Assembly: GCF_003002925.1 (NCBI RefSeq) | Contig: NZ_PVTK01000001.1 | Location: forward strand, 868,001 to 932,000 | Length of the DNA stretch: 64,000 nt | Direction: 5' to 3' | Source: Vreelandella songnenensis | Lineage (GTDB): Bacteria > Pseudomonadota > Gammaproteobacteria > Pseudomonadales > Halomonadaceae | Shown here: positions 1,730 through 12,692 of the stretch, in pieces | How positions within the stretch are numbered: position 1 is the stretch's first letter | Layout of the letters: every line of letters begins with the position of its first letter | Position numbers and translations under genes: made by a program | Notes under the pieces: model-generated | What the model saw: the letters and a program-made list of their open reading frames with translations, nothing else | Told to the model about the DNA's origin: nothing | Database searches by the model: none

Positions 1730-3229
1730 ATGAATATCCTCTTTGATGAGCGCCTTGATGGTGAGCTGGTACGCCGCGACAAGCACGAGGTCCTGACGGA
1801 CCTGCAGCAGGCCGTGCCCAGCATGACCCTGCTTCACCGCGAGGAAGATCTGCGCCCGTTCGAGTGTGACGGCCTGGCCGCCTACCGCGTTCTGCCCATG
1901 CTGGTGGCCCTGCCGGAAAGCCTTGACCAGGTGGAAATGCTGCTCAAGCGCTGCCATGCGCTGGACGTTCCGGTGGTGACCCGCGGCGCGGGCACCGGGC
2001 TTTCCGGGGGCGCGCTGCCGCTCGAGCAGGGTGTGCTTCTGGTAATGTCGCGCTTCAACAAGATCGTCAGCGTCGACCCCGACGCCCGCCTTGCCCGCGT
2101 GCAGCCCGGGGTGCGCAACCTGGCCATTTCCGAGGCGGCCGCCCCTTACGGGCTTTACTACGCGCCGGACCCCTCCTCCCAGATTGCCTGCTCCATTGGC
2201 GGTAACGTGGCGGAGAACGCCGGCGGCGTGCACTGCTTGAAGTACGGTCTGACCGTACATAACGTGCTGCGCGTGGATGTACTGACCATCGAAGGCGAAC
2301 GCATGACGCTCGGCGCCGAATCCCTCGACGCCCCGGGGTTTGATCTTCTTGCGCTGATGAACGGCTCGGAAGGCATGCTGGGGGTGGTGACCGAAATCAC
2401 CGTCAAGCTGCTGCCCAAACCCGAAACCGCCAAGGTGTTGATGGCAAGCTTTGACGATGTCGAGAAAGCGGGCCGTGCGGTGGGCGACATCATCGCGGCA
2501 GGCATCATTCCAGGCGGGCTCGAGATGATGGACAGGCTTGCCATCAAGGCCGCGGAGGATTTCGTTCGCGCGGGCTACCCGCTGGACGCCGAAGCCATCC
2601 TGCTGTGCGAGCTCGACGGCGTGGAGGCCGACGTCGACGACGACTGCGAAACGGTGCGCCGGGTACTCGAGAAAGCCGGGGCCACCCAGATCCAGCAGGC
2701 TCGCGACGAGCTCGAGCGGGCGAAATTCTGGGCCGGGCGCAAGAACGCCTTCCCGGCGGTGGGCCGCATGTCGCCGGACTACTACTGCATGGACGGCACC
2801 ATCCCGCGCCGCGAGCTGCCCCGCGTGCTCAAGGGCATTGCCGCGCTTTCCGAGCAGAGCGGCCTGGCGGTGGCCAACGTGTTTCACGCCGGCGACGGCA
2901 ACATGCACCCCTTGATACTGTTCGATGCCAACAAAGAGGGCGAGCTTGCGCTTGCCGAAGACGTGGGCGGCAAGATTCTGGAGCTGTGCGTAGCCGCCGG
3001 CGGTTCGATCACCGGCGAACACGGCGTGGGGCGTGAAAAGATCAATCAGATGTGCAGCCAGTTCCAGGCCGATGAGATCAGCGTGTTTCACGCGTTGAAA
3101 GCCGCCTTCGACGAGAAGCGCCTGCTGAACCCGGGCAAGAATATTCCCACGCTTGCGCGCTGTGCGGAATTTGGCGCCATGCACGTGCATAACAACGAAT
3201 TGCCACACCCGGAGCTTCCGCGCTTTTGA
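1730..3229 (+). CDS. glcD: Glycolate oxidase, FAD-binding subunit GlcD
   Basis: FAD-linked catalytic subunit that oxidises glycolate to glyoxylate, passing electrons to GlcF and the respiratory chain. It has 499 residues, as in E. coli. The PCMH-type FAD domain includes TRGAGTGLSGG near residue 84, and the C-terminal FAD-oxidase domain includes FHAGDGNMHP near residue 384. The N-terminus MNILFDERLDG aligns with E. coli GlcD, so I chose ATG 1730 over the in-frame GTG at 1727; the ribosome-binding site is weak. It is first gene of glcDEFG. No malate synthase (glcB) follows within the window. Confidence 0.96.
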   Translation: MNILFDERLDGELVRRDKHEVLTDLQQAVPSMTLLHREEDLRPFECDGLAAYRVLPMLVALPESLDQVEMLLKRCHALDVPVVTRGAGTGLSGGALPLEQGVLLVMSRFNKIVSVDPDARLARVQPGVRNLAISEAAAPYGLYYAPDPSSQIACSIGGNVAENAGGVHCLKYGLTVHNVLRVDVLTIEGERMTLGAESLDAPGFDLLALMNGSEGMLGVVTEITVKLLPKPETAKVLMASFDDVEKAGRAVGDIIAAGIIPGGLEMMDRLAIKAAEDFVRAGYPLDAEAILLCELDGVEADVDDDCETVRRVLEKAGATQIQQARDELERAKFWAGRKNAFPAVGRMSPDYYCMDGTIPRRELPRVLKGIAALSEQSGLAVANVFHAGDGNMHPLILFDANKEGELALAEDVGGKILELCVAAGGSITGEHGVGREKINQMCSQFQADEISVFHALKAAFDEKRLLNPGKNIPTLARCAEFGAMHVHNNELPHPELPRF

Positions 3230-3246
3230 TGGCACAAGGACACCCC

Positions 3247-4347
3247 ATGACCGATTTAGCGATTCACTCCGCCGACCGCGATATCGCCGACACCCTGTGT
3301 GACCAGGTACGCACAGCCTATGAAACGCGCACGCCGCTACGCATTGTCGGGGGCGACACCCGCGCCTTCTATGGCCGCCCGGTCGAAGGTCAGGCGCTTT
3401 GCCTGGCGGCGCACAGCGGTATCGTCTCCTACGACCCGGTAGAACTGGTGGTCACCGTGCGCGCCGGTACGCGTCTTGATGCCCTGCAAAGCGCGCTTTT
3501 CGAGCATCACCAGATGCTTCCTTTCGAGCCGCCGGTGTTTGGCGAACAGAGCACCATCGGTGGCGCGGTCGCCACCGGGCTTTCCGGCCCGCGCCGCCCC
3601 TGGGCGGGCGCGGCGCGGGATTTCGTGCTGGGCACGCGGGTCATCACCCAGGAAGGCAAGCTGCTGCGCTTTGGTGGCGAAGTCATGAAAAACGTGGCGG
3701 GGTACGATCTTTCCCGGCTGATGGCCGGTGCCCAAGGCACGCTTGGCGTGCTTGCAGATATCTCCTTCAAGGTGCTGCCCATTCCCACCGCCAGCCACTG
3801 TCTGCGCCTTTCCATGGGCGTTGATGATGCCTTGGGCAAGCTTGCCGAACTGGGCCGCCAGCCACTGCCTATTACCGCGGCGGCCTGGCATGCCGGCGAG
3901 CTTTTCATTCGCCTTGAAGGCGGTGAAAGCTCGGTGAAGGCCACCCGTGAACGTCTGGGCGGCGAGGCGCTGGACGCCGAGTTCTGGACGGCGCTGCGCG
4001 ATCATACGCTCGATTTCTTCACCCTGACCGAAGGCCAGGCGCTGTGGCGCCTGTCGCTGCCGCCCCATACGCCGCCGCTTTCGCTGGATATAGCCGAGAC
4101 CGATATCTTCTACGACTGGGCTGGCTGCCAGCGCTGGGTAAAGGCGGCGCTGGATGCCAAGACCCTGCGCGATGCCTGTCAGGCGGCCGGCGGGCATGCC
4201 ACCTGCTACACCCCCGAGGCCCAGGGCGGCGCGGCCGAACCTTTTACGGCGCTTAACGCCGTGGTGGAGAAGTATCACCGCAATCTGAAAACTCAGCTGG
4301 ATGCCCACGGTATTTTCAATCCCGGTCGTCTTTACGCGGCGTTTTAA
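3247..4347 (+). CDS. glcE: Glycolate oxidase, FAD-binding subunit GlcE
   Basis: Second flavin-binding subunit of glycolate oxidase, 366 residues. It carries the shorter PCMH FAD-binding domain (motifs IVSYDPVELVVTVRAGT, GLSGPRRPW and FGGEVMKNVAGYDLSRLM) and ends with FNPGRLY, as in GlcE. ATG 3247, preceded by AAGGA, is the most likely start. An ATG at 3229 overlapping the glcD stop (ATGA) is in frame and would add six residues, so translational coupling from there is an alternative. Co-transcribed with glcD and glcF. Confidence 0.94.
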   Translation: MTDLAIHSADRDIADTLCDQVRTAYETRTPLRIVGGDTRAFYGRPVEGQALCLAAHSGIVSYDPVELVVTVRAGTRLDALQSALFEHHQMLPFEPPVFGEQSTIGGAVATGLSGPRRPWAGAARDFVLGTRVITQEGKLLRFGGEVMKNVAGYDLSRLMAGAQGTLGVLADISFKVLPIPTASHCLRLSMGVDDALGKLAELGRQPLPITAAAWHAGELFIRLEGGESSVKATRERLGGEALDAEFWTALRDHTLDFFTLTEGQALWRLSLPPHTPPLSLDIAETDIFYDWAGCQRWVKAALDAKTLRDACQAAGGHATCYTPEAQGGAAEPFTALNAVVEKYHRNLKTQLDAHGIFNPGRLYAAF

Positions 4348-4361
4348 TCAGGAGAGCTGAT

Positions 4362-5591
4362 ATGCAAACGCATTTCACCGAGGCCGATCGTCAAAAGCCG
4401 CATATTCAGGAAGCCGAGCGCATTCTGCGCACCTGCGTGCACTGCGGGTTCTGTAACGCCACCTGCCCCACCTATCAGCTGCTGGGCGATGAGCGCGACG
4501 GCCCGCGCGGGCGCATCTACCTGATGAAGGAGCTGCTGGAGAGCCGTGACGATGACGACCAGGTCACCGAAGAGACGAGGCTGCACCTGGACCGCTGCCT
4601 GACCTGTCAGAACTGTGAAACCACCTGCCCGTCCGGCGTCGAGTATCACAAACTTCTCAACATCGGCCGGGCGGAGATCGAGCGCCGCGTACCGCGACCA
4701 CCGGCAGACCGCGCCCAGCGCTATGCGCTGCGCAAGATGATGGTCGAGCCCAAGCGCTTCAAGGCGCTGCTCACGCTGGGCCAGACCTTCAAGCCGCTGG
4801 TACCTGCCAAGCTGCGCAACAAGATGCCCGCCGCCCCGGTGGATGCCGGCAAGCGCCCCGCCACCCGGCACGCCCGCCGCATGCTGATTCTGGAAGGCTG
4901 CGTCCAGCCCGGCCTTTCGCCCAACACCAACGCGGCCACGGCGCGCCTGCTCGACCGCCTGGGTATCAGCCTGAGCCCGGTGAGCGAGGCCGGCTGCTGC
5001 GGGGCGATCGATTTTCACCTCAACGCCCAGGATGACGGCCGCGCTCGCATGCGCGCCAATATCGATGCCTGGTGGCCGCATATCGAGCAGGGCGTCGAAG
5101 CCATCGTGCAGACCGCCAGCGGCTGTGGGGCCTTCATCAAGGAGTATGGCTACATGCTCAAGGATGACCCGGCCTACGCTGAAAAGGCCAAGCGGGTCAG
5201 CATGCTGGCCAAGGATATTGTCGAGATACTGCGCGACGAGCCTCTGGAGTCGCTCAAGGTAGCCGAACCACAGCGGCTCGCCTTTCACTGCCCGTGTACG
5301 CTGCAGCACGCCCAGAAGCTCAACGGCGCGGTCGAAGGCGTGCTTACCAAGCTCGGCTTTGCGCTGACGCCGGTGCAGGATGCCCACCTGTGCTGCGGCT
5401 CGGCGGGTACCTACTCGATCACCCAGCCAGCGCTTGCCACCCAGCTGCGCGATAACAAGCTCAATGCCCTGGAAGCGGGCAATCCTGAGCTTATCGTGAC
5501 CGCCAACATTGGCTGCCAGACGCACTTGGCCGGTGCCAACCGCACGCCGGTGCGCCACTGGATAGAAGTCGTGGAGGCCGCGCTTGGCTGA
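4362..5591 (+). CDS. glcF: Glycolate oxidase iron-sulfur subunit GlcF
   Basis: Iron-sulfur electron-transfer subunit of membrane-associated glycolate oxidase, 409 residues (E. coli 407). Two ferredoxin-type clusters are visible: CVHCGFCNATCP near residue 25 and CLTCQNCETTCPSG near residue 78. Two CCG domains follow (GCCGAIDFH near 210, CCGSAGTY near 344), the usual cysteine-rich region that links to quinone or heterodisulfide-type chemistry. The start has AGGAGAG upstream and lies 14 bases after glcE. All expected cysteines are present. Confidence 0.95.
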   Translation: MQTHFTEADRQKPHIQEAERILRTCVHCGFCNATCPTYQLLGDERDGPRGRIYLMKELLESRDDDDQVTEETRLHLDRCLTCQNCETTCPSGVEYHKLLNIGRAEIERRVPRPPADRAQRYALRKMMVEPKRFKALLTLGQTFKPLVPAKLRNKMPAAPVDAGKRPATRHARRMLILEGCVQPGLSPNTNAATARLLDRLGISLSPVSEAGCCGAIDFHLNAQDDGRARMRANIDAWWPHIEQGVEAIVQTASGCGAFIKEYGYMLKDDPAYAEKAKRVSMLAKDIVEILRDEPLESLKVAEPQRLAFHCPCTLQHAQKLNGAVEGVLTKLGFALTPVQDAHLCCGSAGTYSITQPALATQLRDNKLNALEAGNPELIVTANIGCQTHLAGANRTPVRHWIEVVEAALG

Positions 5592-5667
5592 CAACGCTCC
5601 GCGCCTGCCCGGCGGGCGCGGCTTTAACCCCCTGAAACAACACTTTGTCCAACCACAGGAAACCGAT

Positions 5668-6069
5668 ATGCAAACCAAAGCGATTCTTGCCCTGACCGAT
5701 ATCAACAAGATACTGGATGCCGCGCAGAAAGAGGCCGACAGCAACGCCTGGCCGGTGACCATTGCCGTGGCCGACGATGGCGGCCACCTGCTGGCGCTGC
5801 GCCGCCTGGATGGCGCTGCGCCCTTCAGCGCCGAAGTGGCCACTCACAAGGCGCGCAATGCAGCGCTGGGCCGCAAGGAGACCCAGGTGTTCGAAGAGAT
5901 GATCAACGGCGGGCGCACGGCATTTGTGACCGCCCCTCTACAGGGTCTTCTTTCCGGCGGCGTGCCGGTCATCGTGGATGGCCAGGTGATCGGCTCGGTC
6001 GGTATTTCCGGCGTGAAGCCCGAACAGGATGTGCAGATCGCCAAGGCGGGTGTCAGCGCGATCGCCTGA
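5668..6069 (+). CDS. glcG: GlcG/HbpS-family protein
   Basis: A 133-residue member of the GlcG/HbpS (DUF336) family, the accessory protein encoded in glc operons. Its exact role in glycolate use is not established; some relatives bind heme or cobalamin. Motifs include VADDGGHLLALRRLDGA and the C-terminal GSVGISGVKPEQDVQIAKAG. The frame stays open upstream into glcF, but ATG 5668 with CAGGAAA before it gives the normal family length. Last gene of glcDEFG, followed directly by a terminator. Confidence 0.9.
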   Translation: MQTKAILALTDINKILDAAQKEADSNAWPVTIAVADDGGHLLALRRLDGAAPFSAEVATHKARNAALGRKETQVFEEMINGGRTAFVTAPLQGLLSGGVPVIVDGQVIGSVGISGVKPEQDVQIAKAGVSAIA

Positions 6070-6091
6070 CAGGTGTTACGAGCGCACACAA

Positions 6092-6120
6092 AAAACCCCG
6101 GATCAAGGATCCGGGGTTTT
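6092..6120. terminator. Bidirectional rho-independent terminator
   Basis: A 13-base stem (AAAACCCCGGATC pairs with GATCCGGGGTTTT) with a 3-base AAG loop, and with A and T tracts on its two flanks. It ends glcDEFG on the plus strand and can also stop the tRNA operon arriving on the minus strand. Confidence 0.9.
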
Positions 6121-6193
6121 GGAATTTGTTCGGTATCAACCGATAGTTTTCAAGATAATTACTTGAAAACGAGTACTTGATACTAGTGCTTAA

Positions 6194-6270
6194 TGGCGGA
6201 CCGGACGAGACTCGAACTCGCGACCTCCGGCGTGACAGGCCGGCATTCTAACCAACTGAACTACCGGTCC
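6194..6270 (-). tRNA. tRNA-Asp (GTC)
   Basis: A 77-base cloverleaf on the minus strand, beginning GGACCGGTAG and with the CCA encoded. The anticodon loop reads CTGTCAC, giving anticodon GTC. It is identical over its full length to the Asp copies at 6451 and 6567 and is the promoter-distal gene of the five-tRNA cluster. Confidence 0.97.
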
Positions 6271-6321
6271 ACTAATAAGGCACTTTCTAACACTATTACA
6301 ACCATTTAAAAGGACTTTAAA

Positions 6322-6397
6322 TGGTGGGTGGTACTGGGTTCGAACCAGTGACCCCCAGCTTGTAAGGCTGGTGCTCTCCCAACTGAGCTAACCACCC
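6322..6397 (-). tRNA. tRNA-Val (TAC)
   Basis: A 76-base cloverleaf on the minus strand beginning GGGTGGTTAGCTCAG, with CCA encoded. The anticodon loop CTTACAA gives TAC, which reads valine. It is identical to the copy at 6704. Confidence 0.97.
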
Positions 6398-6450
6398 GGG
6401 GTGTTGATGTTTAATCAACCGATTTTCATCAACCAATCAGCAAGTTATCG

Positions 6451-6527
6451 TGGCGGACCGGACGAGACTCGAACTCGCGACCTCCGGCGTGACAGGCCGG
6501 CATTCTAACCAACTGAACTACCGGTCC
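6451..6527 (-). tRNA. tRNA-Asp (GTC)
   Basis: Second of three identical tRNA-Asp genes on the minus strand, with anticodon GTC and encoded CCA. It is separated from its neighbours by short AT-rich spacers. Confidence 0.97.
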
Positions 6528-6566
6528 GAATAGCGATAACTGCTTTAAAGTAGGTGGGCGTGATGA

Positions 6567-6643
6567 TGGCGGACCGGACGAGACTCGAACTCGCGACCTC
6601 CGGCGTGACAGGCCGGCATTCTAACCAACTGAACTACCGGTCC
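6567..6643 (-). tRNA. tRNA-Asp (GTC)
   Basis: Third identical tRNA-Asp gene on the minus strand, with anticodon GTC and encoded CCA. It is second in transcription order, after the Val gene at 6704. Confidence 0.97.
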
Positions 6644-6703
6644 GCTGTTACATCATGCTGATGCTACTTTGATACTGCTTCACATTTCCAGGCCATCTTG
6701 CGA

Positions 6704-6779
6704 TGGTGGGTGGTACTGGGTTCGAACCAGTGACCCCCAGCTTGTAAGGCTGGTGCTCTCCCAACTGAGCTAACCACCC
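6704..6779 (-). tRNA. tRNA-Val (TAC)
   Basis: First gene of the tRNA cluster in transcription order, with anticodon TAC and encoded CCA. Its sequence is identical to the Val copy at 6322. A strong promoter begins 20 bases upstream. Confidence 0.97.
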
Positions 6780-6798
6780 GCTGGTCACGTGGCGCTGC

Positions 6799-6826
6799 AT
6801 TCTACAGAAGCCTACCGGGATGTCAA
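6799..6826 (-). promoter_or_regulatory. Sigma-70 promoter of the Val/Asp tRNA operon
   Basis: On the minus strand a perfect -35 TTGACA (6821-6826) and a -10 TAGAAT (6799-6804) are separated by 16 bases. A GC-rich GCAGCGCC stretch follows, resembling the stringent-control discriminator of stable-RNA promoters. The first tRNA starts about 20 bases downstream of the -10 box. Confidence 0.85.
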
Positions 6827-6867
6827 CACGTTATGTTTAAACTTTATGATTTAAACCAGCGCGTTGC

Positions 6868-7629
6868 TCACCCTGCCGAAGGCGTTCCATGAGCGCGGAC
6901 GAAGGATGCCGCAAGTAGGGCCGCTTCGTCAATCAAAAACTCATGTTTCACCCCTGACGCCTTTCGCGGCTTGAAGTCATGGTCGCCATCGGCAAGCCAG
7001 GCAAGGCGCGTTTGCGGGGCAAGCGGGTAACCTTCCACCTCTTCCCGAGTGCCAAACGGGTCGCGCTCGCCTTGAAGCACCAGCAGCGGGCAGTGAATAT
7101 CACTCCAGTGGCCCAGGCGCAGCGCCTCCGGCTTCTTGGGCGGGTGAAACGGGTAGCCGGCAACCACTACACCGGGGCAGTTGGCGTCTTCTATCTCACC
7201 GCGGTGCACCCCACTGGCAAACAGCGTGGCAATACGCCCACCCATGGATTTGCCCCCCCCCCAGAGCGGCTGGCTACTCATGGGTTCAAGCAAACGGTAC
7301 CAGGCGACGAAGTGCTCAAGCGTGCGTTCGACGCGGGGCGGCGGGCGGCGCTTTCCCTGCTCCAGCATCTGCTGCATGTAGGGAAAGTCGATCGCCAGCA
7401 CCTGAATGCCGTGCTCGGCAAGCGCTCTGATGATCTGCTGCATGAATGCCGATTGATGCCCGGCGCCAGCGCCGTGAGCCCATAAAATTCGCCCATGGCG
7501 CGGCTGCCCTACCACCGCCAGAGGCCCCAGGCCTTCTACCCGCAGGCGCGGCGCAGCAGACTCCTCTAGCGCTGCGGCCAGCGCATCTGGCAAAACCGGC
7601 GTGTAGTCTGCATAGGCATGCTGAGTCAC
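6868..7629 (-). CDS. KANL3/Tex30-type alpha/beta hydrolase
   Basis: A 253-residue alpha/beta-hydrolase-fold protein. Seen directly: the oxyanion-region motif WAHGAGAGHQS, the nucleophile elbow GGKSMGGR (Ser), the acid-loop motif LQGERDPFG and the late histidine in DGDHDFKP. Together these give an apparently complete Ser-Asp-His triad. The pattern fits the KANL3/Tex30 family (dienelactone-hydrolase-like), whose bacterial substrate is unknown. The start is GTG at 7629, supported by AAGGAG 8 bases upstream. It stands alone, divergent from the CcoI-like gene, with no signal peptide. Confidence 0.83.
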   Translation of the reverse strand: MTQHAYADYTPVLPDALAAALEESAAPRLRVEGLGPLAVVGQPRHGRILWAHGAGAGHQSAFMQQIIRALAEHGIQVLAIDFPYMQQMLEQGKRRPPPRVERTLEHFVAWYRLLEPMSSQPLWGGGKSMGGRIATLFASGVHRGEIEDANCPGVVVAGYPFHPPKKPEALRLGHWSDIHCPLLVLQGERDPFGTREEVEGYPLAPQTRLAWLADGDHDFKPRKASGVKHEFLIDEAALLAASFVRAHGTPSAG

Positions 7630-7847
7630 TGTTTGATCTCCTTTGGGGTAGTGGGTCGCATTTTGGCGGTTTTCGGCGTCTCCTGCGCGTTAAATTCGCC
7701 CCTTAGGCTGCGATCCTGCTAACCTTTTCAAACCGTTAAATACGGGCTTTCGATTCACCCTACTGCACCGGGCCTTGGCCTGAAGGACATCCGTTTGGCT
7801 GAGAAAACGCTGATGCGCCGGTTATCTCAAGAGTGGATAGCCAGGGC

Positions 7848-9599
7848 ATGACGACACCTGCCGCCTGCTATCATTGCAAAAGCGCCGTGCCTGCCGGTGC
7901 CCCCTGGCAGATTACGCTGGATAGCGTGTCTTACCCGGTGTGCTGCCCGGGGTGCGAAGCCGTGGCCAATGCCATCGTGCAGGGCGGGCTCGAGCACTAC
8001 TACCGACAGCGCACCGAACCGCCCGAAAAGCCCGCCACGCAAGCTGTGAAGCGCAATCTCTGGACGCACTTTGATCTGCCCGAATACCAGCACTGGGTCA
8101 GCCTCGAACCGGCAACCGGCAAGGCAAGTGCGACGCTGGCCGTCGAGGGGATTACCTGCAACGCCTGCGCCTGGCTTATCGAGCACCGCTTGAACGCGCT
8201 TCCCGGCATTGCTGCCAGCGCCGTGGATCTGGCCCACCACCGCCTTGTGGTCAGCTGGCACCCCGAAACGCTCCAACCGTCGACATTGATGGGGGAGCTT
8301 GCCGCCATCGGCTATAGCGCTCTGCCCTATATGCCAGTCCCCGCCCAGGCACGCCTTGAAGCATGCATGCGCCAGACGGCCAGGCGGCTGACCGTGGCGA
8401 CAGCGAGCCTTGCGGGCATCGCAGCGCTGGCGCTTTATCCGCTTTTGGACGGGCCTGGGAGTGGCGGCTCAACGCTTCTTGCCGGGCTGACCTTGGCGCT
8501 GGCCAGCGCGTCAATGCTCGCCGCCGCGCCCTTCTTTTTCCAGGCGCTTGGCGATCTAAAGCGCCGCCAACTGGGCCTGATGGTGCCCGTCAGCCTGGCA
8601 CTGACAAGCGCCTACCTGGCCGAGGGCTATGTGATTCTGCACGGCAGCGGGCATTACGCAGGCGCTATCGCCCTGCTGGTGGCGCTCTTACTGCTTGGAC
8701 GCTACGTTGCGCTTCGCAACACTGTAAACGCCGCCGGACAGCGGGCGCTGCCCGCCTTTGCCACGCGGCTCGAAGGCGCGGATGAAGCTCGCGAGCGCCT
8801 GATACCCGTCGCCGCGCTGCTAGTCGGCGATTGCATCAAGGTGGCGCCCGGCCAGCGCCTGCCCGCTGACGGCACCATCATTCGGGGCGAATCCAGCCTG
8901 GATACCTCGCGCCTGACCGGTGAGCCGCTGCCGGCCGCTTGCCGGGCGGGCGATGAGGCGCTGTGCGGTGCACTCAACCTGGAGAACCCGCTGGTCATCA
9001 AGGTATCTCGCGCCGCCGACCAGGCGCGCGCGGCCTGCATCAACCGCCATCTTCAGGCCAACTGGCGCGCGCGGCACCTGGGCGCGACAAGTGCGCCTTA
9101 CATGCACGCCTGGGTGCTGGGGTTGCTGATATCAACGGCCGTCATTGCAGGGCTTTCATGGGACGCCCCCCAGGCCATCGATGCGCCCGTTGCCATGCTG
9201 ATGGCGGGCAGCCCGTTTGCCCTGGCTCTGGCCACGCCGCTGGCCCTGGTGGCCGGGTTCAAGCAGCTTGGCAGGCGCGGGGTATGGGTTACCCGCCCCC
9301 ACGCGCTGCTTACACTGGCGCGTGCTGCACCTATCACCGCGCCTCCGGATGTCTCGCTGCTTAGCCCTCGCGCAGGGCGCCTCGATGAAGCCGTGGCGAT
9401 GGCGCGCTTTACCCAGCGCTGCGTGCAACAAAACCGCTACATTGCGCTTGGAATGACGCTTGTGCTGGTACTTCTGGCCGCACTGGGCCAGCTTTCCCCC
9501 TTGGGTGCCGTGATGGGCAGTGCCGTCAGTGCGCTGATGGTGATCGCCAACACGCAGCGGCGGCTGGGCCGCCCCACTTTTCCCACAGGTAGCCTATGA
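7848..9599 (+). CDS. CcoI/FixI-like P-type ATPase relative lacking the catalytic P and N domains
   Basis: A 583-residue membrane protein related to CcoI, the copper P1B-ATPase that supplies cbb3 oxidase. Present: the N-terminal cysteine region (C8, C10, C32, C33, C36), a heavy-metal domain with CNACAW (C104, C107), helices on both sides of an actuator domain with LTGEPLP near 354, and the final two helices. Absent: the DKTG phosphorylation motif and the whole P and N domains; the chain runs from TRPHALLTLARA straight to ADVSLLS-like sequence (PDVSLLSPR) before the last helices. The membrane CPC metal site reads SPF near 454. The frame is uninterrupted. It probably cannot hydrolyse ATP and may be a metal-binding or assembly partner. 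The start could instead be GTG 7833. Confidence 0.82.
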   Translation: MTTPAACYHCKSAVPAGAPWQITLDSVSYPVCCPGCEAVANAIVQGGLEHYYRQRTEPPEKPATQAVKRNLWTHFDLPEYQHWVSLEPATGKASATLAVEGITCNACAWLIEHRLNALPGIAASAVDLAHHRLVVSWHPETLQPSTLMGELAAIGYSALPYMPVPAQARLEACMRQTARRLTVATASLAGIAALALYPLLDGPGSGGSTLLAGLTLALASASMLAAAPFFFQALGDLKRRQLGLMVPVSLALTSAYLAEGYVILHGSGHYAGAIALLVALLLLGRYVALRNTVNAAGQRALPAFATRLEGADEARERLIPVAALLVGDCIKVAPGQRLPADGTIIRGESSLDTSRLTGEPLPAACRAGDEALCGALNLENPLVIKVSRAADQARAACINRHLQANWRARHLGATSAPYMHAWVLGLLISTAVIAGLSWDAPQAIDAPVAMLMAGSPFALALATPLALVAGFKQLGRRGVWVTRPHALLTLARAAPITAPPDVSLLSPRAGRLDEAVAMARFTQRCVQQNRYIALGMTLVLVLLAALGQLSPLGAVMGSAVSALMVIANTQRRLGRPTFPTGSL

Positions 9600-10381
9600 A
9601 CCCAACCGGGCTTGATCTTCCGCCGCTGATGGCCGCCTTTGTGTTTGGTCTTTTGGGGGGCGCTCATTGCATCGGCATGTGCGGCGGCATCATGAGCGCG
9701 CTGAGCTTTGCCGTGCCGCCCAGCATGCGCCGCCCCGGGCGCATGGCGGGCCTGCTGCTTGGCTATAACCTGGGGCGTATTGCAAGCTATATGGCAGCAG
9801 GCGCCCTGGTGGCCGCGCTGGGCACGCTGATATCGCTGGCCCCGCTCGCCCGCCAGATACTGCAGGGCCTGGCGGCAGTGATGCTGATTCTCATGGCGCT
9901 GTATATCGCCAACTGGTGGAAGGGACTATTGGGCATTGAAGCCCTGGGCAAGCGCCTGTGGCGCTACCTAGAGCCGGTCGGTCGGCGGCTGATGCCGGTG
10001 GTTCACCTGCCCCAGGCGTTTGCATTGGGGGCTATCTGGGGCTGGCTGCCCTGCGGCCTGGTCTACGCCATGCTGGCCTGGAGCCTGGCGATTGCCGAAC
10101 CGCTTCAAGGGGCACTACTGATGGGCGCCTTTGGCCTCGGCACGCTGCCAGCGCTTCTGGCCACCGGGCTTGCGGCCCGCAAGCTGGGTGGCCTGATTCG
10201 CCATCCAGCCACGCGTACCCTGGCGGCACTGATAATCATCGCCTTTGCGCTATGGCAGCTGTGGACGCTGAACGCTCACTCGGGCGAACACTCCCAGGGG
10301 CACTCAGCACCCGCCACGCCTTCACACTCACATTCACATTCACATTCGCCACCATATTCGCCCTCCCACCCCATTCATTGA
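9596..10381 (+). CDS. TauE/SafE-like (DsbD/CcdA-type) membrane protein with His-rich tail
   Basis: A 261-residue polytopic membrane protein with about six helices, of the sulfite exporter TauE/SafE or cytochrome-biogenesis type commonly found after ccoS in cbb3 loci. Conserved cysteines sit in GGAHCIGMCGG near the N-terminus and in WLPCGLVYAML in the middle, as in CcdA/DsbD-type domains. The C-terminal tail is rich in Ser-His repeats, suggesting metal binding. The start codon overlaps the preceding stop (ATGA), so it is translationally coupled to the CcoI-like gene. Its transported substrate is not known. Confidence 0.82.
   Translation: MNPTGLDLPPLMAAFVFGLLGGAHCIGMCGGIMSALSFAVPPSMRRPGRMAGLLLGYNLGRIASYMAAGALVAALGTLISLAPLARQILQGLAAVMLILMALYIANWWKGLLGIEALGKRLWRYLEPVGRRLMPVVHLPQAFALGAIWGWLPCGLVYAMLAWSLAIAEPLQGALLMGAFGLGTLPALLATGLAARKLGGLIRHPATRTLAALIIIAFALWQLWTLNAHSGEHSQGHSAPATPSHSHSHSHSPPYSPSHPIH
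10322..10345 (+). repeat. TCACAT hexamer tandem repeat in the His-rich tail
   Basis: Four tandem hexamers, one TCACAC then three perfect TCACAT, within the 3' end of the TauE/SafE-like gene. In frame they encode alternating Ser and His. The unit length keeps the frame on gain or loss, so tail length may vary between strains. Confidence 0.8.
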
Positions 10382-10461: not shown

Positions 10462-11889
10462 ATGCCCGTGCGTGCCCCTGTTGCCTCCCTATCTGCCCTG
10501 GGTGCCAGCCAGCCGATTCCCCATTGGGACGCCGCCCTGCTGCGCCGCTACGACAAGAGCGGCCCGCGCTATACCTCTTACCCCACAGCGCTGGCCTTTC
10601 ATGAACGCTTCACGGCGGATGACACCATTCAAGCGCTGGAGCGCAGCAACCGGTACGGCCGCCCGCTCTCGCTGTATGTTCACGTGCCGTTCTGTCGCAA
10701 GATCTGCTTTTACTGCGCCTGCAACAAGATTGCCACCAAGAACACCTCGCTGGCTGAGCCCTATCTTTCGCGACTTGACCGGGAAATGGTGCTGACGGCC
10801 CGCCACCTGGACACCTCACGCCCGGTCAAGCAACTGCACTGGGGCGGCGGTACACCAACCTTTCTCTCGCTTTCACAGATGGGCGACCTGATCGACCGCC
10901 TGGACGCCCGGTTCGGGCTTTCAAGCGATGCTGACCGCGATTACGCCATTGAAATCGACCCGCGCGAGGCGGATGTCTTTACCCTGCGTCACCTGCAGTC
11001 GTTAGGCTTCAACCGCTTGAGCCTGGGCGTTCAGGACTTGAGCCCACAGGTACAGAAAGCGATCAATCGTCATCAACCCCGTGTGCTGACCGAAACGCTG
11101 ATGGATGAAGCCCACCGGCTGGGCTTTCGCTCGCTGAACCTGGATCTTATCTACGGCCTGCCCTTTCAGACCGAAAGAAGTTTCGCCGACACCCTGGCGC
11201 AGGTGATCGAGTTGAGTCCGGCGCGCCTGTCGGTGTTCAACTACGCGCATATGCCGGAACGCTTCAAGCCCCAGCGGCGCATCAAGGAGGACGATTTGCC
11301 AGGAGCCGAGGAGAAGCTTTCAATTCTGCGCACCACGATCGAGATGCTCACGGCGGCGGGCTATGTGCATATCGGCATGGATCACTTCGCCAAACCCGGT
11401 GACAGTCTGGCGGTTGCCCAGGCCAACGGCACTCTGCAGCGCAACTTTCAGGGTTACTCGAGCCACGCCCAGTGCGATCTGATCGGCCTCGGGGTTTCCG
11501 CCATCTCGCGCATCGACGATGTGTATGCCCAGAACCCGTCAAGCCTCGGCAGCTATGAAGACGCCTTGGATCAAGGTCGACTAGCCACGCTAAAAGGGGT
11601 GCGTTTAAATAAGGATGATCTAATACGAGCGGACGTCATCGAGCGGTTGATGTGCGATATGCACCTTGATCTGGGCGCCGTGAGCCAGCGCTGGAACATT
11701 GAAGCGGCCGACTATTTTGCCGGCGCAATGGCAACACTGCGCACCGCCGAGCAGGACGGGCTAATTACCTGGCAGGGTGATACGCTAAGCACCACCCCCA
11801 TGGGGCGGCTATTGATCCGCCATCTGGCCATGGCGTTTGATGGCTATCTGCCTGGGCAGTCGGGTTCGCGCTATTCACGCATTGTCTAG
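10462..11889 (+). CDS. hemN: Oxygen-independent coproporphyrinogen III oxidase HemN
   Basis: Radical-SAM enzyme that decarboxylates coproporphyrinogen III to protoporphyrinogen IX during anaerobic or microaerobic heme synthesis. It has 475 residues; E. coli HemN has 457, and the extra length is at the N-terminus. The [4Fe-4S] motif is CRKICFYCAC (C78, C82, C85), with the HemN-specific fourth cysteine at 87. HWGGGTPT and the C-terminal HemN domain (FADYFAG...GRLLIRH) are also clear. The start has GGAGG upstream. Placement next to the Anr-type gene matches Pseudomonas cbb3 loci, although I saw no TTGAT-N4-ATCAA site in its short leader. Confidence 0.96.
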   Translation: MPVRAPVASLSALGASQPIPHWDAALLRRYDKSGPRYTSYPTALAFHERFTADDTIQALERSNRYGRPLSLYVHVPFCRKICFYCACNKIATKNTSLAEPYLSRLDREMVLTARHLDTSRPVKQLHWGGGTPTFLSLSQMGDLIDRLDARFGLSSDADRDYAIEIDPREADVFTLRHLQSLGFNRLSLGVQDLSPQVQKAINRHQPRVLTETLMDEAHRLGFRSLNLDLIYGLPFQTERSFADTLAQVIELSPARLSVFNYAHMPERFKPQRRIKEDDLPGAEEKLSILRTTIEMLTAAGYVHIGMDHFAKPGDSLAVAQANGTLQRNFQGYSSHAQCDLIGLGVSAISRIDDVYAQNPSSLGSYEDALDQGRLATLKGVRLNKDDLIRADVIERLMCDMHLDLGAVSQRWNIEAADYFAGAMATLRTAEQDGLITWQGDTLSTTPMGRLLIRHLAMAFDGYLPGQSGSRYSRIV

Positions 11890-11939: not shown

Positions 11940-12692
11940 ATGTCACTACCGGCAAGCCAACGCCGATCGCTTCTTCAGGAAGCCCGCTGCCAGACCTGCA
12001 GCCTGAGCTCGCTGTGCCTGCCGCTCGCGCTGGAGCTGGAGGACATGGGGCAGTTCGATGCCATCATTCGCCGCCGGGCGCCGTTGAAAAAAGGCGAGCC
12101 GCTGTTTCGCCAGGGTGATCGTTTTACCAGCGTGTACGCGGTGCGCTCGGGTAGCCTGAAGCAGATCACCAGCGAAGGTAATGGCAACGATCAGTTGACC
12201 AACTTCTTTCTGCCCAGCGAGCTCGTTGGCCTGGACGGGATTGACGAAGAGCACTACCCCGGCAGCGTCATCGCGCTTGAAACCACGACCATCTGCGAGA
12301 TCCCGTTCGACCAGCTGGATACGCTTTCAGAAGAGTTGCCGGAGCTGCGTGGCCAGCTCTACCGCAGCATGAGCAAGGAGCTTCGCGACGACCGGCGCAT
12401 GATGCGCCTACTCTCGCGCAAGACCGCCGACCAGCGGCTGGCAAGCTTTTTACTCACGCTATCCGAGCGCTTTCGGCGTCGCGGCTACTCGCCCTACAGT
12501 TTCAGGCTCTCCATGGCGCGGGCGGATATCGGCAACTATCTGGGGCTGGCCGTCGAGACGGTCAGCCGCATTCTGAGCCGTTTTCAGCAGCAGAAGGTAG
12601 TGGCCGTTTCCGGCCGGGAGGTCAACATTCTCGACATGCAACGCCTTGTGGCGTTGAGTGAAGAGGACGATCAGACGATCACTTCACGTTAA
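11940..12692 (+). CDS. anr: Anr/FNR-type oxygen-responsive transcriptional regulator
   Basis: A 250-residue CRP/FNR-superfamily regulator that senses oxygen with a [4Fe-4S] cluster. The four cluster cysteines are visible: C17, C20 and C26 in [10 protein letters not shown], and C119 in TICEIP. A cyclic-nucleotide-like beta roll follows, then a DNA-recognition helix in the form [10 protein letters not shown] near residue 207, with the E-SR arrangement of the FNR type. GGGAG lies upstream of the ATG. Its tail overlaps the tail of ttcA by 14 bases. It is the expected regulator of microaerobic genes such as hemN. Confidence 0.94.

Follow-up and report, generated by a model that had tools for sequence, protein, structure and literature searches.

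A CcoI homologue without its ATPase domains, kept beside a DsbD_2 membrane protein with a His-rich tail in Vreelandella genomes in which cbb3 oxidase was not found

Introduction

The closest described relative of the protein considered here is CcoI (FixI), a P1B-1 ATPase of the CopA2 type. One study of R. capsulatus CcoI (PMC8475189) reports that mutation of the CPC cysteines leaves about 2% of oxidase activity, that N-MBS1 and N-MBS2 mutants have about 25% activity, with full or partial rescue by copper, and that N-MBS1 is glutaredoxin-like. PMC7558416 describes CupA of Streptococcus pneumoniae as a membrane-anchored copper chaperone. Its likeness to the short CcoI is one of proposed working only, namely a Cu(I)-binding domain held at the membrane. 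CupA is not known to derive from a P-type ATPase. E. coli CopA(Z) arises by ribosomal frameshifting and consists of the N-terminal metal-binding region of CopA, so that there too a copper ATPase contributes its metal-binding region without the pump. CopA(Z), however, is soluble and occurs alongside the intact pump, whereas the short ccoI gene has itself lost the catalytic domains and retains its membrane helices.

The short CcoI resembles CcoI in its end-to-end homology outside a single gap, in its combination of PF12156, HMA domain, membrane region and actuator, and in its locus; it differs in lacking the P domain, the N domain, CPC, YN and the TM8 Met, and in that no cbb3 oxidase was found for it to serve. 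Its partner is a member of the DsbD_2 membrane proteins (PF13386), set apart from other members in short-form genomes by a His-rich C-terminal tail and by its linkage to a CcoI remnant. In the parts of the open-access literature available, we recognised no described case of an engine-less P-type ATPase or of a short-ccoI locus.

Results

The short CcoI protein

The window analysed here is a stretch of 64,000 nucleotides of Vreelandella songnenensis (NZ_PVTK01000001.1, positions 868,001 to 932,000). The short ccoI gene and its parts lie in it as follows.

7848 to 9599, forward strand: engine-less CcoI homologue, 583 aa (ORF call, Pfam, alignment)
7863 to 8093, forward strand: N-MBS1 (PF12156 by Pfam; CYHC and CCPGC cysteines, all five kept in 9/9 short proteins)
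8133 to 8315, forward strand: N-MBS2, an HMA or CopZ-like domain (Pfam; CNAC, both cysteines kept in 9/9; omega 0.11)
8748 to 9032, forward strand: actuator domain with TGE (Pfam; model compared with the CopA A-domain 2hc8)
9210 to 9218, forward strand: former CPC transport site, which reads SPF (sequence, alignment)
9318 to 9356, forward strand: junction without the P and N domains, about 215-250 aa in full-length relatives (alignment)

Counted from the ATG, the product has 583 aa (588 if a GTG at 7833 were the start), and the end of the gene overlaps the start of the following gene, dsbD_2, in an ATGA at 9596-9599. The open reading frame and this overlap confirm the clean, coupled frame described in the first-pass annotation, which had also read the product as CcoI-like, with both metal-binding regions, the helices and a TGE actuator, with SPF for CPC and without P and N domains; Pfam, motifs and alignment agree on every one of these points. 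Pfam placed PF12156 at residues 6-82, HMA at 96-156 and the E1-E2 actuator family at 303-476, and found no HAD/Hydrolase domain in the 583-aa protein; in a full-length relative, taken as a control, PF00702 covered residues 515-726. Both DKTG and GDGxND are absent from the window protein. An AlphaFold model built from a 29-row alignment (mean pLDDT 76, pTM 0.62) had copper P-type ATPases as its best structural matches (ATP7B 7si6, E 5.9e-18; 4bbj; 7r0g), and its actuator domain superposed on 2hc8 with an rmsd of 1.3. Because the whole-chain superpositions were loose, the model backs the fold and not the domain arrangement. Judged by its sequence, the window protein is a descendant of CcoI, yet it lacks what defines a P1B ATPase.

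At positions 9345-9371, part of what was the final strand of the P domain survives in the eight clade members introduced below (invariant V, P and R). FNR-box patterns were absent from up to 320 bases upstream of ccoN or the short gene at 16 loci, a promoter and terminator scan found nothing, and neither the plasmid collection nor PADLOC gave a match.

Distribution

A CcoI match (E 1e-90) was present in 69 of the 82 genomes of the genus Vreelandella, and 8 of the 69 are short. These eight genomes (G000, G059, G026, G072, G064, G022, G086 and G063), each standing for its own species, have a common gap and a common locus, and the other seven short proteins are 50-72% identical to the window protein. 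A scan of named genomes returned the short form in Vreelandella aquamarina MB598, V. nanhaiensis, V. populi, V. zhanjiangensis, Halomonas colorata and a Halomonas MAG; these six records are themselves members of the eight (G059, G072, G026, G022, G064 and G086) and add no cases. The same scan gave one unrelated Microbacterium match at 28% identity. Frames in the 61 other CcoI-match genomes measure 753-984 aa; the one exception is G069, whose 446-aa frame is a fragment in a genome 80% complete. A ninth short form, that of G065 (535 aa), scored below the E 1e-90 cut-off and is differently shortened, lacking some 65 residues from its first membrane helices in addition to the P and N domains.

When 293 genomes from across the order were scanned with a profile, 188 had a match at E 1e-80, a cut-off that would miss a G065-like protein; among the matches listed, window aside, three frames were below 650 aa (G194, G133 and G151), those of G194 and G133 lying less than 400 bases from a contig start. 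Family-wide, PF12156 was present in 205 of 275 genomes, as surveyed from the matches listed plus 47 further genomes picked by E-value; frames below 500 aa in G069, G073, G098, G455, G463 and G503 (genomes 74-86% complete) were treated as fragments.

The locus and the cbb3 oxidase

Three further features mark the place of the short gene within the old locus.

7630 to 7847, no strand: site of ccoNOQPGH in cbb3-bearing relatives (synteny)
10462 to 11889, forward strand: hemN, rest of the old cco-hemN-fnr locus (synteny)
11940 to 12692, forward strand: fnr, rest of the old locus (synteny)

FixO of the cbb3 oxidase was found in 62 of the 82 genus genomes and FixS in 64 (a few of these being weak matches inside longer frames), each in 0/9 of those with a short CcoI; CcoS was not found in any of the nine either. 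The earlier suggestion of an oxidase-assembly partner therefore fails for cbb3. FixO is present in 60 of the 61 other CcoI-match genomes, the exception (G083) being 66% complete, and ten genus genomes have neither PF12156 nor FixO. Two COX1-family genes remain in each of the nine short-form genomes.

All seven loci examined that encode full-length CcoI read glcF-glcG-(abh)-ccoNOQPGHIS-dsbD2-hemN-fnr-ttcA, with abh unmatched in G035 and G024. The eight clade loci read abh-ccoI(short)-dsbD2-hemN-fnr-ttcA, and that of G065 reads ccoI(short)-dsbD2-hemN-fnr-ttcA with no abh match. The descent of the short ccoI from the cco locus, beside the cbb3 genes, is clear, and to judge from these gene orders the ancestral locus was ccoNOQPGHIS-dsbD2-hemN-fnr. 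Nine of the ten loci without CcoI were looked at (G032 was left out), of which seven read abh-hemN-fnr and two (G006 and G012) have abh beside ttcA. Since genomes without CcoI also occur, a genome that loses the oxidase does not always retain a short CcoI; those that do retain dsbD2 as well. That relatives encode a normal CcoI in the same position had been named as evidence against a maintained short form; such a gene is indeed seen at the cbb3-bearing loci (7/7), and it does not overturn that reading because genomes without cbb3 have either the short form or no gene.

Three side observations concern the same region. In G006 and G012 (L139 and L140 being their respective loci), hemN and fnr are gone from the locus along with the entire cco cluster, and abh adjoins ttcA. 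In G010 (L039, 14966-16730), two adjoining TtcA-like pieces are 96% and 64% identical to the G017 protein. In G065 (L138, 10111-11076), dsbD_2 and hemN are separated by a 321-aa ORF whose product looks like an esterase by eye.

The DsbD_2 partner

The gene coupled to the short ccoI encodes the following.

9596 to 10381, forward strand: DsbD_2 membrane protein, 261 aa, with ATGA overlap with the short ccoI (PF13386, E 1e-52)
10265 to 10378, forward strand: His-rich C-terminal tail of DsbD_2, 38 aa with 9 His, predicted periplasmic (tail survey, hydropathy)

The DsbD_2 gene adjoins the short ccoI in 9/9 genomes and is absent from the nine CcoI-less loci looked at. Its product carries a tail of 14-45 aa with 4-19 His in all nine short-form genomes (at least 28 aa and at least 8 His in 8/9, and 19 His in G065). 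In 57 full-length-CcoI genomes, a survey that left out three more of this kind, the tail has 4-18 aa with 0-3 His and reaches four His in 0/57; the longest of them (18 aa, 2 His) comes near the tail of G063 (14 aa, 4 His). Hydropathy and charge, with overlapping N-terminal windows merged, suggest six helices and a periplasmic tail, loops with 4, 6 and 4 K+R alternating with loops of 0-1 K+R. The cysteines of HCIGMC and PCG are invariant across 33 rows, and omega for the DsbD_2 core is 0.053 (three short pairs) vs 0.026 (six full pairs). A structure model of DsbD_2 (pLDDT 57.6) was too weak to use.

Three further DsbD_2 copies, in copper islands, have tails of 19-20 aa with 2-4 His and no short CcoI beside them; the copper-island copy is 71-73% identical, with a DsbD_N domain protein (PF11412) directly before it and a CopA-type ATPase nearby. 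One such copper-type island, in G072 (L189, G072:C20:10000-25000), holds a CopA-type ATPase (824 aa), DsbD_N and a second DsbD_2 by Pfam, and by eye also DsbG-, TlpA- and Lgt-like genes; similar DsbD_2 copies occur in G010 and G036.

Residues kept and lost

Every short protein (9/9) retains the full set of seven N-terminal cysteines. The catalytic Asp of DKTG, the first CPC Cys, the TM7 Tyr and Asn and the TM8 Met are each present in 38/38 full-length rows and 0/9 short proteins. The second CPC Cys is kept in 4/9, the CPC Pro in 5/9 and the TM8 Ser in 9/9, and the actuator motif reads TGE in 7/9 and SGE in 2/9, its Glu being kept throughout. Mean pairwise identity among the eight short proteins is 0.81 for HMA, 0.71 for N-MBS1, 0.62 for the actuator and 0.52-0.54 for the membrane parts; among 37 full-length proteins it is 0.90 for TM1-4 and TM5-6, 0.85 for HMA and actuator, 0.82 for N-MBS1 and 0.81 for TM7-8. 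The metal-binding domains have therefore moved from below the TM1-6 core in the full-length proteins to the best-kept part of the short ones.

Pooled omega, obtained by a counting method from three independent short pairs and ten full pairs, was 0.26 vs 0.064 over the shared columns. By part, short vs full, it was 0.112 (0.052-0.196) vs 0.075 for HMA, 0.185 (upper limit 0.29) vs 0.101 for N-MBS1, 0.167 vs 0.075 for the actuator, 0.363 (0.273-0.481) vs 0.050 for TM1-4, 0.357 vs 0.044 for TM5-6 and 0.266 vs 0.053 for TM7-8. Every pooled short value has an upper limit below 0.54; TM1-4 in the closest single short pair reached 0.91 on very few changes. These substitution estimates demonstrate purifying selection on the short CcoI, strongest on the HMA domain. 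Together with frames that stay open in eight species of one clade and in G065, they bear out the first-pass view of a protein that is maintained rather than decaying.

One or two origins

The eight short-form genomes form one clade in species markers (support 95/96, and 100/99 in the hemN+fnr+ttcA tree); in the hemN+fnr+ttcA tree G065 falls elsewhere, weakly (73/78) beside the G024+G035 pair (100/100). Constraining G065 to join the eight in that tree lowers lnL by 31 (AU p 0.020); joining it to G024 alone is rejected (p 1e-11), as expected because of the strongly supported G024+G035 pair. In the TtcA tree, whose set did not include G035, G065 groups with G024 (90/93); in the tree of the DsbD_2 core it groups with G024 and G088 (96/87), union with the eight not being rejected (p 0.365). 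In the CcoI tree, G065 joins the eight (93/94) on a long branch of 1.01, placement beside G024/G035 not being rejected (p 0.28), and the N-terminal part of CcoI alone gives the same union (93/90; p 0.21 for placement beside G024/G035, not rejected). Species markers and the differences between the deletions are more simply read as two origins; a single origin followed by transfer, joining G065 to the eight, is also possible. The eight clade members count as one event, and the correlations reported here rest on one or two independent events.

Other P-type ATPases and oxidases

The window genome has one PF12156 protein only, with no second full-length CcoI, and its three other P-type ATPases all lack PF12156 and are unlinked to the short ccoI. 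No separate P/N-domain polypeptide was found in the nine short-form genomes, where every listed match lies in a frame of 666-869 aa. A further cluster of the window genome (L191, G000:C11:25000-40000, positions 2859-9061) holds what reads as a caa3-type oxidase: its COX2 has a CxxCH motif, and its COX1, of 841 aa, may be a fusion with COX3. Next to these genes is a complete heavy-metal P-type ATPase of 727 aa. Because this cluster has its own complete P-type ATPase, delivery to a caa3-type oxidase is not an obvious role for the short CcoI.

Discussion

The short CcoI is best read as a protein that neither pumps copper nor regulates a second CcoI. Since its sequence has lost the ATPase domains and the transport-site residues, it cannot carry out ATP-driven transport by the known cycle. 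The proposal that it regulates a full-length CcoI elsewhere is not supported, given the single PF12156 protein in the genome, the lack of PF12156 in its three other P-type ATPases and the failure to find a separate P/N domain in the nine short-form genomes. A metal chaperone, also proposed at the outset, survives as the best kind of answer, its role being putative. On balance, we think it probable that the non-catalytic CcoI remnant is anchored in the membrane, faces the cytosol, binds Cu(I) and acts together with the DsbD_2 encoded beside it. The R. capsulatus mutants suggest a copper-binding role for the retained domains by homology: the N-terminal domains would be Cu(I) binders or thiol donors located at the membrane and might hand metal or electrons on to DsbD_2, and the His-rich tail of DsbD_2 may buffer or receive metal on the periplasmic side. 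Against this reading stand the fast-evolving membrane parts, which partial decay would match, the second CPC Cys in 4/9, the TM8 Ser in 9/9, the modest DsbD_2 tail of G063 and the His-bearing tails of copper-island copies that have no short CcoI as neighbour. More tentatively, it is possible that after cbb3 loss CcoI was remade, on perhaps two separate occasions, into a metal dock without an engine, and that DsbD_2 acquired its periplasmic His-rich tail and became the membrane conduit, so that the two proteins form an ATP-free copper or reductant route made from parts of a pump locus.

That the short CcoI is instead a slowly decaying relic, its frame open only through translational coupling to dsbD_2, is in our view unlikely. 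Constraint is relaxed (omega 0.26 vs 0.064 over the shared columns), the gene overlaps dsbD_2, and ccoNOQPGH and ccoS are gone from the locus. However, omega stays at 0.11 for HMA and 0.19 for N-MBS1 (upper limits 0.20 and 0.29), the seven cysteines persist in 9/9 proteins despite dS above 1 in most pairs, and nine genomes contain zero frame-breaks; coupling would preserve an open frame, not N-terminal metal-binding residues.

We regard as distinctly unlikely a thiol-redox relay, in which N-MBS1 would pass electrons through DsbD_2 to the periplasm with copper secondary. The DsbD_2 family name, the invariant HCIGMC and PCG cysteines and the copper-island copy, preceded by DsbD_N and near genes that look thioredoxin-like by eye, all fit such a relay, but a His-rich tail and an HMA domain point more to metal than to thiols, and of the genes of the window that were searched at this locus, none was seen to encode a periplasmic thiol acceptor. 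It is very improbable that the short CcoI is a copper sensor that regulates other P-type ATPases through its metal-binding domains: terminal metal-binding domains regulate copper ATPases according to PMC11970713, and other full-length P-type ATPases persist in short-form genomes, but their genes are unlinked to the short ccoI, and relatives with full-length CcoI own such ATPases too, without an additional short form. An assembly or sequencing deletion in the window genome has nothing in its favour and is practically excluded by the identical gap in eight genomes of as many species, six of them represented by separately deposited named records.

The short CcoI is a natural split of the metal-binding half of a copper pump from its motor, selected in eight species of one clade. 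Because the pair outlasts both the oxidase and the pump activity, the action of the CcoI N-terminal domains alone can be put to the test, and so can the role of the DsbD_2 neighbour of the cco genes.
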